Source: Acetobacter okinawensis
Lineage (GTDB): Bacteria; Pseudomonadota; Alphaproteobacteria; Acetobacterales; Acetobacteraceae
Reading direction: 5' to 3'
Length of the DNA: 64,000 bases
Assembly (NCBI RefSeq): GCF_002153655.1
Contig: NZ_JOPJ01000006.1
Location: forward strand, 124,001 to 188,000
Shown: positions 2,722 through 53,271 of the stretch, one piece after another
Position numbering within the stretch: the stretch's first letter is position 1
Layout of the letters: the number at the start of each line of letters is the position of its first letter
Notes under the pieces: model-generated
The model's input: the letters and a program-made list of their open reading frames with translations, nothing else
What the model was told of the DNA's origin: nothing
Database searches by the model: none
Program-made: the position numbers and the translations under genes

Positions 2722-3297
2722 ATGGCTCGTGAACCAAGAGAAGGCGGTCGAGGCGGCCGTGAGCGCGAACGCGAAGGCGATGAGCTGGTTGATAAGCTGG
2801 TAACCATCAATCGCGTTGCAAAGGTTGTTAAGGGTGGTCGGCGTTTTGCGTTTGCTGCTCTGGTTGTGGTTGGTGACCAGAAAGGTCGCGTGGGCTACGG
2901 TGCCGGTAAGGCTCGTGAAGTTCCCGAAGCGATCCGTAAGGCAACTGAACGCGCCAAGCGTGGGATGATTCGCGTTCCCATGAAGGAAGGGCGTACGCTG
3001 CATCATGACGTCGCTGGTCACTTCGGGGCTGGTAAGGTTGTGCTGCGCTCGGCGGAAGCCGGGACAGGGATCATCGCTGGTGGTCCTATGCGTGCGGTTT
3101 TTGAAAGCCTTGGCATTAACGACGTTGTGGCCAAGTCTTTGGGAACCCGGAACCCGCATAACATGGTCAAGGCAACATTCGATGCCCTGACGCGTTGTGC
3201 CAGCCCGCGTGCCGTGGCAAATCGTCGTGGCAAAAAAGTGGCGGAAATCTTTGGCAAGCGCGACCAGGCTGCTGGTGCGGAGGCTGCAGATGTCTGA
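2722..3297 (+). CDS. rpsE: 30S ribosomal protein S5
   Basis: A 191-residue S5, which lies at the mRNA entry site and affects decoding fidelity. It has a charged N-terminal extension of about 22 residues ([18 protein letters not shown]) before the conserved double-stranded RNA-binding domain with [19 protein letters not shown] and then [20 protein letters not shown]. The extension makes it longer than E. coli S5 (167). A GAGGAAAGGA site precedes the start. Its end overlaps rpmD by 8 bases. Confidence 0.97.
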
Positions 3298-28080: not shown

Positions 28081-30836
28081 GGTTTGTCCTCCAGCCGTTT
28101 GAGCAGCATGGGAACATGCACCTGATCTGCCTTGTAGCTGCCCGTCAGGGCGTAGATAACGGTGTTCAGCCCAAACCTGTAGGCTTGCAGGCGCTGGTCG
28201 CTGCCGCCGGGAATAACGGCAAAAGGCGTATTGCCTGCGCTATCTACCGCCCATGCATGCGCCCAGTCTGCCGAGCCGATAATGACCGGGCTGACATCAT
28301 CATTCTCCGCGTCTCCCTCCTTGGCGACCCATATGGGCTGCCCCGCATATCGGCCGGGAAAGTCATGCAGAAGGTAAAAAGTGTGGGCCAGCAGATGGTG
28401 GTCGGTCATGACCACCAGAGGGGGGATGACCAGACCAGCCGTAACCCGGCGCAGGGCTGCTGTGGTGCCGGGGGCATCGGCGGCAAAAGTTGTATCGGTG
28501 CTGTTTGTGCCGTCCTGCCCCTGTGTGTCTATCAGCAGGATGCCGCCATGGGCCATAAAGGTGTTGAGTGCTGCCGTCATGGCGGGTGTGGTGGTGGCGT
28601 CTGCGGTAATCGGCCAGTACAGCAGGGGGTAGTAAGTCAGGTCATCCGTGCCGGGGTGCACGCCATCGGGGTGGCCCATGACGGCGGAGGTGCGAGCATT
28701 TACAAAGTCGGACAGGCCCTGCAACCCCGCGCGGGAGGCTTCGTCTACATCCTCATGCCCGCTTACAATATAGCCCAGCCGGGTTTCCAGTGCGGCTGCA
28801 GGCACATGTGCCTGCGCCGTGGCATCCTGCGTTTGGGCGGTGGAAGGGGTTGCGTACAGTGCGCCGAGCAGCGCAAGCAGGGGGGCTGCCCTGCGTGGAG
28901 CAAAAAGCCTGCCCGTACGCATAAGCCCGACAAGCACACCGTCCAGCAGAGCAAGCAGAACAAACCCCAGCAGGCAGTAACGCCCAAGAGGCAGGTCTGG
29001 CCTCTGACCAGATGCATCTGTCAGGGTACCCACGGGCTGTGCGGCTTGCAGGCTCTGCATGCCAGCAGCAGCGTTAAGAGCCCGGCGCCCGTCCGGGGGG
29101 CCATACAGGCCCGGCGGATGGATGGGAGAGACTACGGTACCGGCCAGTGCCGTACCCTGTATGGCCCGCGCGGTGGGAGGGGGCGGCCCCGCCATGCCCT
29201 CACCATCCAGCGTTATGGCAGGGGCGAGCAGCGTTGTGTCGGCTGGGGTGCTCAACCCGTTGGCGTGTTCAGTCAGGCGTTGGAGCATGGCAACAAACAG
29301 GCCCGACAGCGGCAGGTTTGACCAGTCTGCCGTGCTGCTGACATGGAACAGAACAACCTCGCCACGCCCCAGTTCCATATGGGTGACAAGGGGTGTGCCA
29401 TCGGCCAGCCGCGCCCAGACATGCGCCCCCAGATCGGCCGAAGGACTGGCCAGCACCTGACGGGAGACAGTGACATCTGCCGGAATGCTCAGACCGCGGA
29501 AAGGGGATGTCTGCTCAAACGGTGCCAGATGCTGCGGGGTGCCCCATGTCATGGAGCCACCAAGCTGACGTGCACCATCAAGCAGGGGAACGGGCAAAAG
29601 GTCCCGTGCTGCATCCTGTGGCGTGGGGGTGCTGGTCTCTGCATCACGCTGGCTGCCAGCCAGGGCTGGCCCTGCAAAGCGGATGAGCATGCCACCGTTT
29701 TTTATCCAGTCCTGTACGGTTTTCTGGCTTTGTGCTCCGGCCAGAGTACCATCTGGTGCAATCAGTACGGATAAGGGGCGGGCCAGCAAGGCATCCAGCG
29801 TTCCCTCATGCAGGTCGGAGAGCGGAGCAAGTGCGCGGCGGAGGTAGAAAATGGAGCCGATCAGCGGTGTGTCTGCTCCGCCGCTGGATAGCAGGCCAAC
29901 GGGGCGCAGGCGCGTGTTTTCGTCCAGCAGCACGGTGGTGGCGGCACTGGCCACGCCCTGAACATTCAGCGTGTCTATGCGGTTGCGCACGGCTATGGGC
30001 AGGTTGATCTGCACATCTGCCTGTGTGGCGCTGGCGGCAACCGGCACGGGCACAACGGCAAGTGTGCCACCATCCGTTGTGCGGGCAGCAACATGCACAA
30101 GGCGTGGCTGGGGGGAGGGCAGAAGTAACAGACGCGCCAGTGCTCCCCCTTCCGCCGCCGGGGTGGAGGGGGCCAGCGCCATGCTGTTCTGTGGTGCAAA
30201 GCGGATTTCCTGCACCGTGCCGCGTGCGTGTAGGGCTTTGGCAAAGCTGTCCACATCGCCTTGGGCTATGCCGTCGGCCAGATAGACCACACGGGCAAAA
30301 GGTGTTTGGGGCAGGTGCTCAAGCTGCTGGGCCGCACGTGCCCGGTCCACGGGCCAGGAGCTGGGATGGAGGCTGTTGAGCATCTGCCGCACAACCGCTG
30401 CGGGCTGGAGTTCTGGTGCTGTGGATGGGGCCTCCGCCTGAGGGGCGGTGGTCAGCACAAGCAGGCGGGACTTTGTACGCTCAGCATCGTCCACAATGGA
30501 TTGTGCCGCATTCAGGCGTTCGGTCCAGTCTTGCGCACTCCACATGCCATCATCCATGACCAGCAGAACAGAACCGCTGGCCACAGCCCCATTATGGCTG
30601 CCGGGAATGAAGGGGCGTGCAAACCCCACAATCAGCAACCCTGCGACCAGAAGGCGGAGTAACAACAGCCATGGTGGGGAGCGTGCGGCTTCCGTCTCCT
30701 TCGGGTGTAGCCGGGACAGGACGGTAACGGGGGGGAAAACCTGCTGGCGCGCGCGTGGTGGCGTTGCGCGGAGCAGCCACCACACCAATGGTAGGCAAAG
30801 CAGGGCAGAGAGCAGCAGAGGGAACTGGAAGATCAT
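28077..30836 (-). CDS. BatA-like/DUF4159 membrane protein
   Basis: A 919-residue protein with an N-terminal BatA-type membrane module (FPLLLSALLCLPLVWWLLRA and a second helix LLLLRLLVAGLLIVGFARPF). The vWA-like segment has VMDDGMWS where an intact MIDAS would read DxSxS, so metal binding is doubtful. Two helices lie near the middle (GFVLLALLDGVLVGLMRTG). The C-terminal DUF4159 domain contains TYYPLLYWPITADA and HGGILLIDTQGQDG. The family is common in alphaproteobacteria next to MoxR and DUF58, but its function is not known. Confidence 0.8.
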   Translation of the reverse strand: MIFQFPLLLSALLCLPLVWWLLRATPPRARQQVFPPVTVLSRLHPKETEAARSPPWLLLLRLLVAGLLIVGFARPFIPGSHNGAVASGSVLLVMDDGMWSAQDWTERLNAAQSIVDDAERTKSRLLVLTTAPQAEAPSTAPELQPAAVVRQMLNSLHPSSWPVDRARAAQQLEHLPQTPFARVVYLADGIAQGDVDSFAKALHARGTVQEIRFAPQNSMALAPSTPAAEGGALARLLLLPSPQPRLVHVAARTTDGGTLAVVPVPVAASATQADVQINLPIAVRNRIDTLNVQGVASAATTVLLDENTRLRPVGLLSSGGADTPLIGSIFYLRRALAPLSDLHEGTLDALLARPLSVLIAPDGTLAGAQSQKTVQDWIKNGGMLIRFAGPALAGSQRDAETSTPTPQDAARDLLPVPLLDGARQLGGSMTWGTPQHLAPFEQTSPFRGLSIPADVTVSRQVLASPSADLGAHVWARLADGTPLVTHMELGRGEVVLFHVSSTADWSNLPLSGLFVAMLQRLTEHANGLSTPADTTLLAPAITLDGEGMAGPPPPTARAIQGTALAGTVVSPIHPPGLYGPPDGRRALNAAAGMQSLQAAQPVGTLTDASGQRPDLPLGRYCLLGFVLLALLDGVLVGLMRTGRLFAPRRAAPLLALLGALYATPSTAQTQDATAQAHVPAAALETRLGYIVSGHEDVDEASRAGLQGLSDFVNARTSAVMGHPDGVHPGTDDLTYYPLLYWPITADATTTPAMTAALNTFMAHGGILLIDTQGQDGTNSTDTTFAADAPGTTAALRRVTAGLVIPPLVVMTDHHLLAHTFYLLHDFPGRYAGQPIWVAKEGDAENDDVSPVIIGSADWAHAWAVDSAGNTPFAVIPGGSDQRLQAYRFGLNTVIYALTGSYKADQVHVPMLLKRLEDKP

Positions 30837-47905: not shown

Positions 47906-50900
47906 TCAGAACGAACCACTAAAGTATGACTGAAGTGGCGCAACATCAAGCGGTCCTTCGCGCATTGCCGCAATAGCATGGATTGCAGCACGTGCGCCCG
48001 CCATGGTGGTGTAGTGCGGAATACCCAGCACAAGGGCGGAACGGCGGATGTCAAAACTGTCGGCAACCGACTGCGCACCCTGTGCGGTGTTGATGACCAT
48101 CTGCACTTCGCCCGAGCGGATGGCGTCCACGCAGTGCGGGCGTCCTTCAAGCACCTTGTTGACCACGCTCACTTCAATGCCGGACTCACGCAGCTTGCGC
48201 GCCGTGCCCCGTGTCGCCACGATTTTAAAGCCCATGGAGGCCAGCAGGCGGCCCAGCGGGGGCAGTTGCGGCTTGTCGCTCTCACGCACGGACAAGAACA
48301 CCGTACCACTCATGGGCAGGCGTACACCCGCCCCAAGCTGGGACTTGGCAAAGGCACGCTCAAAGGAGGTATCCAGCCCCATGACCTCACCCGTGGAGCG
48401 CATTTCTGGCCCAAGAATGGTGTCTACTTCCGCAAAGCGGTTGAAGGGGAACACGGCTTCCTTGACCGCCACATGCGGCACAACCGCCCGGTCGTCCAGA
48501 TTAAAGCCGCTCAGCTTGCTGCCCGCCATGACCCGTGCGCCAATTTTGGCTACGGGAACCCCCGTTGCCTTGGCCACGAACGGCACGGTGCGCGAGGCAC
48601 GCGGGTTGACCTCCAGCACAAAGATCTCCTGATCCTTGATTGCGTACTGGACGTTCATCAGCCCCACAATACCAAGCTCGCGCGCCATGGCCTCGGTCTG
48701 GGCCTTGAGTTCGGTCACAATGGCGGGGGAGAGCGTGTAGGGCGGAAGGGCGCATGCGCTGTCGCCCGAGTGAATGCCCGCTTCCTCAATGTGTTCCATT
48801 ACCCCGGCCACGTACACATCCGTGCCGTCGGCAATGCAGTCCACATCCGCCTCGATCGCCTCGTTCAGGTAGCGGTCAAGCAGGATGGGGCCGGAGGAAA
48901 TTTCATGCCCTGCGACCCGCAGCACGTCACGCATGTAACGCTGGAGGGAGGCACGGTCATACACAATTTCCATCGCCCGGCCACCCAGCACGTAGGATGG
49001 GCGGACAACCACAGGGTAGCCCACGCGTTCGGCCACGGCCTCGGCCTCTTCGGGGCTGCGGGCAATACCGTTTTCGGGCTGGCGCAGGCCGAGCTTGTGC
49101 AGCATGGCCTGGAAGCGCTCGCGGTCTTCTGCACGGTCAATGGCGTCAGCCGGGGTGCCCAGCAGCGGAATGCCTGCGGCTTCCAGTGCGCGGGAGAGCT
49201 TGAGCGGGGTCTGCCCGCCATACTGCACAATGCAGCCCTTGACCGTACCGTTACGCTGTTCGCAGCGGATCAGGGCAATGACATCTTCTGCCGTCAGCGG
49301 TTCAAAATACAGCCGGTCGGACGTGTCATAGTCGGTGGAGACCGTCTCGGGGTTACAGTTGACCATAATGGTCTCATACCCGGCCTCACGCAGGGCGTAG
49401 GCGGCATGAACACAGCAGTAGTCAAACTCGATCCCCTGACCAATACGGTTGGGGCCACCACCGAGGATGATGATCTTTTCCCGATCCGTCGGGTTGGATT
49501 CACAGACCGGAGGGGCAAAATGCCCTTCGTAGCTGGAATACATATACGGTGTTGCGGAGGCGAACTCGCCCGCGCAGGTGTCGATCCGGCGGTAAACAGG
49601 GTTTACGCCTGCTTCTGCCCGGAGCTTGGCCACTTCCTCCGGCTGGGTGCCGGACAGGCGGGAGAGCTGCACGTCGGAGAAGCCAAGTGCTTTGAGGCGG
49701 CGCAGGCCCTGTGCGTCTTTGGGCAGGCCGTGGTGTTCCACGTCACGCTCGGCGCGGATGATTTTTTCCATCTCACGCAGGAACCACGGTTCAAACTTGC
49801 AGGCCTCGTGAATGGCCTCGACCGACAGACCCGAGCGCAGCGCCTGCGCAGCCATGAGAATACGTTCCGGCCGCGGCTGGGAGAGTGCAGCACGGAAAGC
49901 GTCTTCCCCGCCATCACCGGGGACTTCCACCGGGTCCAGCCCATACAGGCCGGTTTCCATGGAGCGCAGGCCTTTTTGCAGCGCTTCGGGGAAGGAACGG
50001 CCAATGGCCATGGCCTCGCCAACCGACTTCATGGACGTGGAGAGCAGGGCGGGTGCGCCGGGGAATTTTTCAAACGTAAAGCGCGGGATCTTGACGACAA
50101 CATAGTCGATTGTCGGCTCGAAGGACGCAGGCGTTGTGCGTGTGATGTCGTTCTTCAGCTCATCCAGCGTGTAGCCCACGGCCAGCTTGGCTGCGACCTT
50201 GGCAATGGGGAAGCCCGTTGCCTTGGAGGCCAGTGCTGAGGAGCGCGAGACGCGGGGGTTCATCTCGATCACCACCATGCGGCCATCAACGGGGTTGATG
50301 CCGAACTGCACGTTGGAGCCGCCGGTTTCCACCCCGATGGCCCGCAGGCAGGCCAGAGAGGCATCACGCAGCCGCTGGTATTCCTTGTCGGTCAGCGTCA
50401 GGGCCGGGGCGACCGTAATGGAGTCACCCGTATGTACCCCCATGGGGTCGATGTTCTCGATCGAGCAGATGATAATGCAGTTGTCCGCCGTGTCGCGCAC
50501 AACTTCCATTTCGTACTCTTTCCAGCCCAGTACGGACTCTTCGACCAGCACTTCCGTGGTGGGCGAGGCATCAAGGCCGGAGAGGACAATCCGCTCGAAT
50601 TCTTCGCGGTTATAGGCAATGCCGCCACCTGAGCCACCCATGGTAAAGGAGGGGCGGATAATGGTGGGGAAGCCAATCTGCTTGAGTGCCTCGTGCGCTT
50701 CGGCCAGCGTGTGGGCAATAAAGCTGCGCGGGCTTTCAATGCCAATGGCGTCCATGGCCTCGCGGAACTTCTGGCGGTCTTCGGCGCGGTCGATCACATC
50801 GGCCTTGGCACCGATCAGCTCGACATTATGCTTTTCCAGAAAGCCCGAAGCATGCAGCGCCATGGCCGTGTTCAGCGCTGTCTGCCCGCCCATGGTGGGC

Positions 50901-51160
50901 AGCACCGCATCGGGTTTTTCCTTAAGGATAATGCGCTCGACCACTTCTGGCGTAATCGGTTCCACATAAGTGGCGTCCGCAAGGCCGGGGTCGGTCATGA
51001 TGGTGGCGGGGTTGGAATTGACCAGAATGACCCGGTACCCTTCCTCCCGCAGGGCCTTACAGGCCTGCGCGCCGGAATAGTCGAATTCGCACGCCTGACC
51101 GATAACAATGGGACCGGCGCCGATGATGAGGATGGAGCGGATGTCTGTCCGTTTGGGCAT
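47906..51160 (-). CDS. carB: Carbamoyl-phosphate synthase large subunit
   Basis: A 1084-residue CarB, the usual length. It makes carbamoyl phosphate from bicarbonate, ATP and ammonia channelled from CarA, for arginine and pyrimidine synthesis. It starts [20 protein letters not shown]; the two ATP-grasp halves carry [14 protein letters not shown] and [18 protein letters not shown], and the C-terminal allosteric domain (from about residue 940) has the [20 protein letters not shown] start. It lies 16 bases after carA in the same operon. Confidence 0.97.
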
Positions 51161-51176: not shown

Positions 51177-52589
51177 TTAGTGTTTGACGCCGTTGGTGTC
51201 GATCAGGGTGACAAAGCGTTCGAACAGATAGAAGCTGTCGGACGGGCCGGGGCTTGCCTCGGGGTGGTACTGCACGGAAAACGCTGCGTATTTGTCGGAC
51301 GCCAGTCCCTCGTTCGAGCCATCAAAAAGGCTGATGTGGGTGACATGCGCATCTTCGGGCAGGGTTGCTGCGTCCACGGCAAAGCCGTGGTTCTGGCTGG
51401 TAATTTCCACCTTGCCGGTTGCAAGGTCCTGCACGGGCTGGTTGGCGCCGCGGTGGCCGCGTTCCATCTTGTAGGTTTTGGCGCCCAGTGCCTGTGCCAG
51501 CAGCTGGTGGCCAAGGCAGATGCCAAACAGCGGTATGCCCGCTTCCAGCACGGTGCGGATGGCAGGCACGGCATAGCTTGCCGTCGCCGCCGGATCGCCC
51601 GGACCGTTGGAGAGGAACACCCCTTCGGGCTTGAGTGCGAGAATCTGCTCACCCGTGGTGGTGGCGGGCACTACGGTTACGTCGCACCCGGCACTGACAA
51701 GGCAGCGCAGGATGTTGCGTTTTGCACCGTAGTCCACTGCCACAACCTTGCGGCGCTTGCCTGTGGGGGCGGCGGTGTTGTCCGGCCATGACCATACACC
51801 CTCGGACCACGTATAGGGGGCGGCGCAGGTGACTTCCTTGGCAAGGTCCATGCCTTCCAGCCCCGGCCATGCGGCCACTTCGGCAGCAATGGCGTCCAGA
51901 TCAAACCTGCCATCGGCGGGGAAGACAAGAGCTGCGGTCTGCGCACCGCCATCGCGGATTTTCAGCGTCAGGCTGCGGGTGTCCACACCGGCAATGCCGG
52001 GGGTGCCGTGCTGCTTGAGCCACGCATCCAGGCTGCTGGTGGCGCGCCAGTTGGCCTGTTCGGTCGGGTCTTCCTTGACCACCAGACCAAGGGCTGCGGG
52101 GCGTGCGGCCTCATCATCCAGCGCGTTTGTGCCGACATTGCCAACATGCGGAAAGGTAAAGGTGATGATCTGCCCGGCAAAGGAGGGGTCGGTCAGGGTT
52201 TCCTGATACCCGGTCATGCCGGTGGAAAAGCAGATTTCCCCAATGGCGGGCTTGGGTGTGAAGGCGCCAAAGCCTTTCCCCCACAATACGCTGCCATCTG
52301 CGAGAACAAGAGCGGCGGTCGCGCCATCCGGGCGGGCTTGAGGCATGGATGATCCTGTCTGGCTGCCTCCCGCAAGGGGGGAGGGTCTGTCTGTAACTGC
52401 GGGGGTGGGCTGAAGGTCCTGAAGGGAAAGACCCGTGGCCTGTGCAATGGCAGGCCAATGGCGGGAGGGAATGGCCTGCGCCTGTCGCCATTTGCGAATG
52501 GCCTCGGTGCCAACGCCGGTCAGCCGCGCCGTGGCCTCCGGGCCGCCAATGCGGGCGATAATGGAGTCGATTGACATGGGCATGGGCAA
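51177..52589 (-). CDS. carA: Carbamoyl-phosphate synthase small subunit fused to an N-terminal HTH domain
   Basis: A 470-residue protein. Residues about 5-60 form a Cro/YdaS-like helix-turn-helix domain ([49 protein letters not shown]). A Pro/Ser/Gly linker (61-81) leads to a complete CarA from about residue 88 ([20 protein letters not shown]), with the amidotransferase cysteine at residue 358 (FGICLGHQL) and the His/Glu pair in YHPEASPG. CarA alone is normally about 380-400 residues. TTG at 52589 has GGAGG seven bases upstream; ATGs at 52583 and 52577 are alternatives. An internal ATG at 52346 with AGGA six bases upstream would give plain CarA (389 residues). Confidence 0.93.
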
Positions 52590-52633
52590 GATGGTTCCTC
52601 CTCCAGATGCTCTTTTAGCAGCATGTCACGGAG

Positions 52634-52703
52634 GTGGGAAGAAATTTCCCACTCAGGGGGCGGGGTGCGCGGGGTGTGTGGGAAGTTTTTTCCCATATGG
52701 GGA
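52634..52703. promoter_or_regulatory. Tandem TGGGAA palindromes upstream of carA
   Basis: Two inverted repeats, GTGGGAA-N5-TTCCCAC (52634-52652) and GTGGGAA-N5-TTCCCAT (52678-52696), lie 44 bases centre to centre in the 226-base divergent region between carA and yqeY. A further half-site TGGGGA (52698-52703) completes CCCATATGGG (52692-52701). The first repeat overlaps the likely carA promoter zone. The binding protein is unknown; the HTH domain of CarA is a candidate. Nothing else is recognised in the remaining bases of the gap. Confidence 0.6.
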
Positions 52704-52815: not shown

Positions 52816-53271
52816 ATGACCCTTCGTGAAAGCCTGATGGCAGACCTGAAAACCGCAATGAAGGCGGGAGAAAGTGCCCGGGTTGCAACCATCCGCATGG
52901 TAACGGCCAAACTCAAGGATGTGGAAATCGCAGGCCGTGCAAAGGGGCAGGAAGGGCTGAGCGAGGAGGACGGTATTTCCGCCCTGCGCGGCATGATCAA
53001 GTCCCGCACGGAATCCGCCACGTTGTACCGCGATGCCGGACGCCCCGAACTGGCGGACAAGGAAGAGGCCGAAATTGCGGTGATCCGTGGCTACCTGCCC
53101 CCTGAGCTGGATGAGGCCACTCTGGCCGCAGCAGTCAAGGAAGCTGTTGCCTCTACCGGTGCCGCGTCCATGAAGGATATGGGCAAGGTCATGGGTGTGC
53201 TCAAAGGCCGCTTTGGTGCAGCTCTGGACATGAGCCGCGCGAGTGCCGCCGTAAAGGCGCTGCTGGGCTAG
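52816..53271 (+). CDS. yqeY: GatB/YqeY family protein
   Basis: A 151-residue YqeY protein, related to the tail domain of the GatB amidotransferase. The family start LRESLMADLKTAMKAGE, VRMVTAKLKDVEIA-type segment (RMVTAKLKDVEIAGRA), YRDAGRPELADKEEAEI and GYLPPELDEATL are all present. It may bind tRNA, but its function is not settled. A GAGAAGC site lies upstream of the ATG. It lies 22 bases ahead of dnaG, a pairing frequent in alphaproteobacteria. Confidence 0.92.
   Translation: MTLRESLMADLKTAMKAGESARVATIRMVTAKLKDVEIAGRAKGQEGLSEEDGISALRGMIKSRTESATLYRDAGRPELADKEEAEIAVIRGYLPPELDEATLAAAVKEAVASTGAASMKDMGKVMGVLKGRFGAALDMSRASAAVKALLG

Follow-up and report, generated by a model that had tools for sequence, protein, structure and literature searches.

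Comparative evidence for an operator upstream of carA and a predicted autorepressor role for HTH-bearing CarA in Acetobacteraceae

PutA and BirA are enzymes that directly repress genes of their own pathways and are counted among the trigger enzymes, according to the accessible part of a published account (PMC6978683). In E. coli, the control of carAB involves PepA, PyrH, ArgR, PurR and RutR, and the enzymes PepA and PyrH share in the repression (PMC6245113, accessible part). The carA locus of Acetobacter okinawensis described here concerns the same operon, in E. coli likewise repressed with the participation of enzymes. It differs from the E. coli case in that there other enzymes and regulators act from far upstream, CarA itself not being described as a regulator in the accessible part of that account. 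Its likeness to PutA and BirA, as far as the accessible text on those two extends, is that one polypeptide is both a metabolic enzyme and, on our reading, the DNA-binding repressor of its own operon. The enzymes are different ones, CarA carrying a Cro-like head on a subunit of carbamoyl-phosphate synthase (CPSase), and PutA and BirA have DNA-binding folds and effector switching of their own that differ from HTH-CarA.

The head of CarA is a member of the NCBIfam model NF046037 (carph-isopro), which gives a name but no operator. In sequence and fold it is like the Cro proteins of phages (Xfaso 1, N15, P22), from which it differs in being fused to an enzyme and encoded in a chromosomal biosynthetic operon. 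Palindromic sites of 17 bp within a promoter are typical of Cro-like phage repressors. We found no paper on an HTH-bearing CarA, its operator or the carph-isopro name in a search at title and abstract level whose scope excluded most subscription journals and bioRxiv. NCBI has already given the domain a name and presumably knows of the fusion, while the role and operator of the CarA head seem undescribed in the literature searchable here.

The following features were placed in the window, meaning the whole stretch of 64,000 nucleotides that was analysed.

47906..51160, minus strand: carB, 16 bp after carA, named from its ORF and translation read by eye.
51177..52589, minus strand: carA with N-terminal HTH, an ORF with CPSase small subunit and carph-isopro domains; start TTG at 52589 or ATG at 52583.
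52410..52571, minus strand: HTH head (carph-isopro, Cro/YdaS-like), residues 5-58 counted from the ATG at 52583; 68.2 bits to NF046037, cut-off 38.
52479..52508, minus strand: recognition helix, residues 26-35 including Gln34; a helix in the structure model, in which residue 34 covaries with the half-site.
52597..52604, minus strand: Shine-Dalgarno-like GGAGGAGG of carA, from the sequence.
52612..52617, minus strand: predicted -10 hexamer TAAAAG of carA, 17 bp after the operator.
52635..52640, minus strand: predicted -35 place of carA, TTCCCA, which is the right half-site of the proximal operator; placed by the spacing to the -10 TA in relatives.
52635..52651, minus strand: predicted proximal operator, exact palindrome TGGGAAGAAATTTCCCA, reading TGGGAAATTTCTTCCCA on the carA strand; conserved upstream of HTH-carA.
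52679..52695, minus strand: predicted distal operator, exact palindrome TGGGAAGTTTTTTCCCA, reading TGGGAAAAAACTTCCCA on the carA strand; 44 bp from the proximal one.
52816..53271, plus strand: yqeY, the divergent neighbour (Pfam YqeY).

The sequence-only reading had pointed to two tandem TGGGAA-N5-TTCCCA palindromes 44 bp apart upstream of carA, and both are exact, at 52635-52651 and 52679-52695. Nowhere else in the window does a sequence come within two mismatches of this palindrome. Dinucleotide shuffles of the same upstream DNA (n=4700) contained one site in 1.4% of cases and two sites in none. One or two sites with ≤2 mismatches were found within 250 bp upstream of carA in 44 of 47 genus representatives, one for each of 47 of the 97 head-bearing genera and the best-scoring among the matches listed, with weaker genera under-sampled. 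This shows that the palindromes are more than chance. The genome (2.72 Mb) contains one further exact palindrome (C65:31347), which lies within a small ORF of a prophage-like stretch and which we took to be a chance occurrence. A third half-site, CCCATATGGG, had also been noted, and it is indeed present at 52692-52701. It was rejected as a part of the operator, being absent by eye from all 28 related Acetobacter upstream regions compared and recurring at 28328. MraZ boxes were dropped as the identity of the sites because they are direct repeats.

Conservation of the palindromes in relatives, proposed earlier as a check whose failure would refute the operator reading, extends across the family. 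A looser score recovered a site pair upstream of carA in 46 of the 47 genera, and two sites of ≤3 mismatches each were present in 40, of which 35 had them spaced 37-40 bp apart. The earlier description of the spacing as four helical turns fits the 44 bp seen here and in many Acetobacter, but not the 37-40 bp of most genera. The full range of 37-50 bp corresponds to no fixed number of helical turns, which counts against the model. Within Acetobacter, an exact site is present in 45 of 49 genomes and lies beside carA wherever the position of carA was compared. The four others are G012 and G016, both with a CarA without the head (for G016 only apparently so, its contig beginning at carA), G069, with one site of one mismatch and one of three (L158), and G071, a 68% complete genome with no CarA match. 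Sites are weak or degenerate in some genera (L120, L126, L130, L150 and L157). The Commensalibacter locus L120 has kept the head, while its sites are degenerate (TAGGAATTTTTTTCCAA) and show no recognisable promoter spacing. Upstream of HTH-less CarA, none of 16 regions (13 from other families and three from within the family) had a site of ≤2 mismatches, suggesting that the sites are lost together with the head.

The gene next to the palindromes had been said to encode an HTH domain, and the score of its head against NF046037, well over the curated cut-off, bears this out. The head of the window falls below the Pfam gathering cut-offs of YdaS (PF15943, 27.7 against 30 bits) and P22 Cro (PF14549, 23.4 against 30.2 bits), while all 46 heads examined match both families at E-values up to 0.01. 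By these scores the head resembles the two families, yet is not filed there. Its structure model is a compact five-helix HTH (pLDDT 90.3), joined to CarA by a linker of low model confidence (residues 61-80). Cro proteins were the best match in a profile search of the PDB (E-value 2.5e-4), and they also came first when the model was searched with Foldseek, at E-values of 0.08-0.13 (Xfaso 1 Cro: TM 0.72, E-value 0.13) and with no match at 0.001 or below. The head is thus modelled as having a Cro-like HTH fold. The remainder of the product is a complete CPSase small subunit (TIGR01368, 450 bits, cut-off 307), and the GICLGHQ and HPE columns are invariant in 46 aligned CarA sequences, so that the enzyme part of HTH-CarA is intact as judged from its sequence. 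carB presumably belongs to the same operon.

HTH-CarA is widespread in Acetobacteraceae. The CarA of the window is 99% identical to its counterpart in the Acetobacter genome G005. A search with the head found it in 373 of 397 sampled genomes of the family and in 97 of 102 genera. Among the matches listed, all head-bearing open frames but two (377 and 402 aa) were at least 444 aa long, in line with a fused CarA, and CarA follows the head in 80 of 80 named loci. These make up 80 of the 345 confirmed loci and come from Acetobacter, Komagataeibacter, Novacetimonas, Gluconacetobacter, Rhodopila, Acidisphaera, Commensalibacter and unplaced bins. Of 24 genomes of other families, 20 yielded a CarA match, which began at query residue 54 or later. 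A search for HTH-CarA at the level of the order returned only Acetobacteraceae. At the level of the class (337 genomes, head profile), there were 33 matches outside the family, and none of the 15 that were fetched had CarA within the locus.

Of the 24 Acetobacteraceae genomes lacking a head match, we tested 20. Three have an HTH-less CarA (G012, G101 and G187), four are cut at contig ends, and 13 had no CarA match at an E-value of 1e-30. In all three HTH-less cases, the open frame upstream of CarA is too short for a head. G012 lies beside Acetobacter in the tree, whereas G101 and G187 belong to the genus g54; G101 lies beside g85, although its long branch makes this placement unsure. The HTH-less CarA of the family therefore probably reflect two head losses. 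The carA frames of two Acetobacter genomes contain an internal stop (G010:C194:7779-9196 and G046:C3:31236-32624), through either assembly error or decay.

We also compared the half-sites with the recognition helix, in which residue 34 is near the end (residues 26-35 in the structure model). The comparison covered 147 distinct upstream regions, many from close relatives, with sites picked solely by their GGAA/TTCC core; two were dropped for having no RKW/KKW. With Gln34, 460 of 528 half-sites had G as their second base; with Ser34, 38 of 44 had C there. Counted by majority per genome, 116 of the 135 Gln34 genomes had G, none had C and 19 were mixed, some of the latter because only one site was found. 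Ten of the 11 Ser34 genomes had C and one was mixed, as was the single Ala34 genome; ten of these 12 Ser/Ala genomes were chosen after the first two had shown the pattern, which was seen in L126 and L130 before ten more genomes of their genera were deliberately added. The half-sites of this clade are CCGGAA in place of TGGGAA. Because the two Ser34 genera form a single clade (support 99/95), the change from Gln34 to Ser is best counted as one event kept in many species, to which other differences of the clade may contribute. One Gln34 genome, L350, is an exception to the rule, with CCGG-like half-sites. Taken together, these data suggest that operator sequence and recognition helix have changed in step, in one matched change of specificity.

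The proximal palindrome has a defined position relative to the predicted promoter. Promoters of Gluconobacter oxydans are given as ttGnnn and nAtnnn with a spacer of 16-23 in the accessible part of their description (PMC5756330), and the carA hexamers fit this pattern. In 37 of the 47 genera, a TTG starts precisely 6 bp ahead of the proximal palindrome, and in 36 of those 37 the second base after the palindrome is A. By contrast, TTG occurs at the same place of the distal site once in 46. The proximal palindrome would accordingly form the 17-bp spacer of a predicted TTGnnn-17-nAnnnn promoter. An ATG follows the predicted -10 by 6-8 nt in 33 of the 37 spacer-type genera, indicating that their carA mRNA is probably leaderless.

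The remaining ten genera, which include Acetobacter, Gluconacetobacter and Commensalibacter, have the proximal site farther from the start. In nine of these ten (L120 is the exception), the TA of the -10 follows the operator at a distance of 17-18 bp, which suggests that the -35 place is occupied by the half-site TTCCCA. A script assigned 49 of the 80 named loci to the type with the half-site on the -35 place, 24 to the spacer type and seven to neither. Six of these seven show the TA of the -35-place type by eye; the seventh is the Commensalibacter locus L252, for which the script gave no promoter type. In both promoter types, a bound protein would cover the predicted core promoter. Set against the traits of PutA and BirA, HTH-CarA thus has a conserved site that overlaps its own predicted core promoter (spacer in 37/47, -35 place in 9/10 of the others).

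We consider it very probable that the palindromes are the operator of carAB and that the repressor is CarA itself, as the sequence-only reading had proposed in calling them an operator and CarA a candidate binder and autoregulator. Conservation across the family, location in the predicted core promoter, absence of sites without the HTH and covariation with the recognition helix in one clade all support this. The best reading is a dedicated autorepressor of carAB that works like PutA or BirA. The fusion, the conserved pair, the placement in the predicted promoter, the joint loss with the head and the one matched change all come from comparison of sequences; direct binding, dimerisation and repression rather than activation are what we infer from them. 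One palindrome would be bound by the Cro-like heads of two CarA polypeptides, with one GGAA half-site read by each recognition helix. As the proximal site covers the core promoter, binding of CarA would block RNA polymerase. The second site, usually 37-40 bp and here 44 bp upstream, would add affinity, through either a second dimer or a CarAB oligomer. In this way the amount of the enzyme, and perhaps its state, would feed back negatively on the transcription of its gene. Candidate inputs to such a switch are free CarA, CarAB, glutamine, UMP and ornithine, and our guess is that repression is concentration-dependent and that assembly with CarB modulates it.

A separate, stand-alone regulator could instead bind the palindromes, the HTH on CarA being unrelated or degenerate, and other Cro-like proteins are indeed encoded in the genome. 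We regard this as unlikely, since loci without the head lack the sites, and the sites change with the head in one clade. As noted earlier, there is also no other regulator gene beside carA in the window, judged by reading. Nor is there a regulon for such a protein beyond carA: away from carA, the 49 Acetobacter genomes contain seven exact sites, compared to six for a reversed control pattern, so that carA looks like the sole target at exact-match stringency. The same count gives no support to the wider pyrimidine/arginine regulon for which a genome scan had been proposed, exact sites beyond carA being at control level in these genomes.

It is less probable still, and in our view very unlikely, that CarA, bound at the sites, acts as an activator or has the divergent yqeY as its main target. 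The distal site could in principle serve an activator, but a site between -35 and -10 (37/47) or on the -35 place points rather to repression of carA. Although yqeY is divergent in 40 of the 47 representatives, it is also divergent in 13 of the 16 HTH-less loci, which have no sites. Moreover, at loci with yqeY at a distance of about 600 bp (four loci) or with no yqeY found (seven loci, two of which have little upstream DNA), the sites are still next to carA. Being inverted repeats, the palindromes might also act as RNA hairpins in the transcript, as an attenuator or terminator. We give this almost no credence: 37 of 47 genera have their proximal site between the predicted -35 and -10, upstream of the transcript, 33 of those 37 have their ATG 6-8 nt after the -10, and the palindrome sequence varies with a residue of a protein.

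Heads of this kind occur on other enzymes. The N-terminus of HisZ matches the domain or head profile, over the cut-off in L194 and at 35-39 bits in L189, and so do those of crotonyl-CoA carboxylase/reductase (L190, 58 bits; head in 23 of 31 genomes of that order) and NAD(P)H-hydrate epimerase/dehydratase (L328). The N-termini of GlmU (L180; 1390-1644, minus strand) and CoaBC (L191) match below the cut-off. We see a slightly better than even chance that the head is a portable self-regulation module, grafted several times onto biosynthetic enzymes in alphaproteobacteria (CarA, HisZ, crotonyl-CoA carboxylase/reductase and NAD(P)H-hydrate epimerase/dehydratase, and more remotely GlmU and CoaBC), each self-repressing through its own operator.

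Several further observations concern related heads. Many class-wide carph-isopro matches (L304, L305 and L310-L327) appear to be mitofilin-like membrane proteins that carry an HTH at the N-terminus, which for L305 was checked with Pfam. By eye, about 130 bp upstream of the start, HTH-HisZ genes (L299-L302) have repeated TGTCCTGTTTT/AAAACAGGACA and HTH-crotonyl-CoA reductase genes (L276-L298) often have AACAC repeats; both are possible operators. The HTH-GlmU gene has a CarA-like GGAA-N5-TTCC palindrome, GGAATTTAATTCC, upstream (by eye, in one gene of one genome in its order). In the A. okinawensis genome, two neighbouring genes of a prophage-like stretch (L001:2582-2797, minus, and 2870-3262, plus) encode a stand-alone YdaS/Cro-like protein and an HTH_3 repressor, and the gap between the two contains TTGGGAAATCCATCCCAA, similar to the carA half-site.

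If the head acts alike on HisZ, GlmU and others, fusion to a phage-repressor-like domain would be a general way of making an enzyme its own thermostat. The operator of carA is short and exact, and its sequence varies with one residue of a helix, making it quickly testable and a natural specificity switch. For the family, the prediction is that all of Acetobacteraceae, including the vinegar and cellulose producers, would gate the entry to pyrimidine and arginine synthesis by an enzyme sitting on its own promoter.
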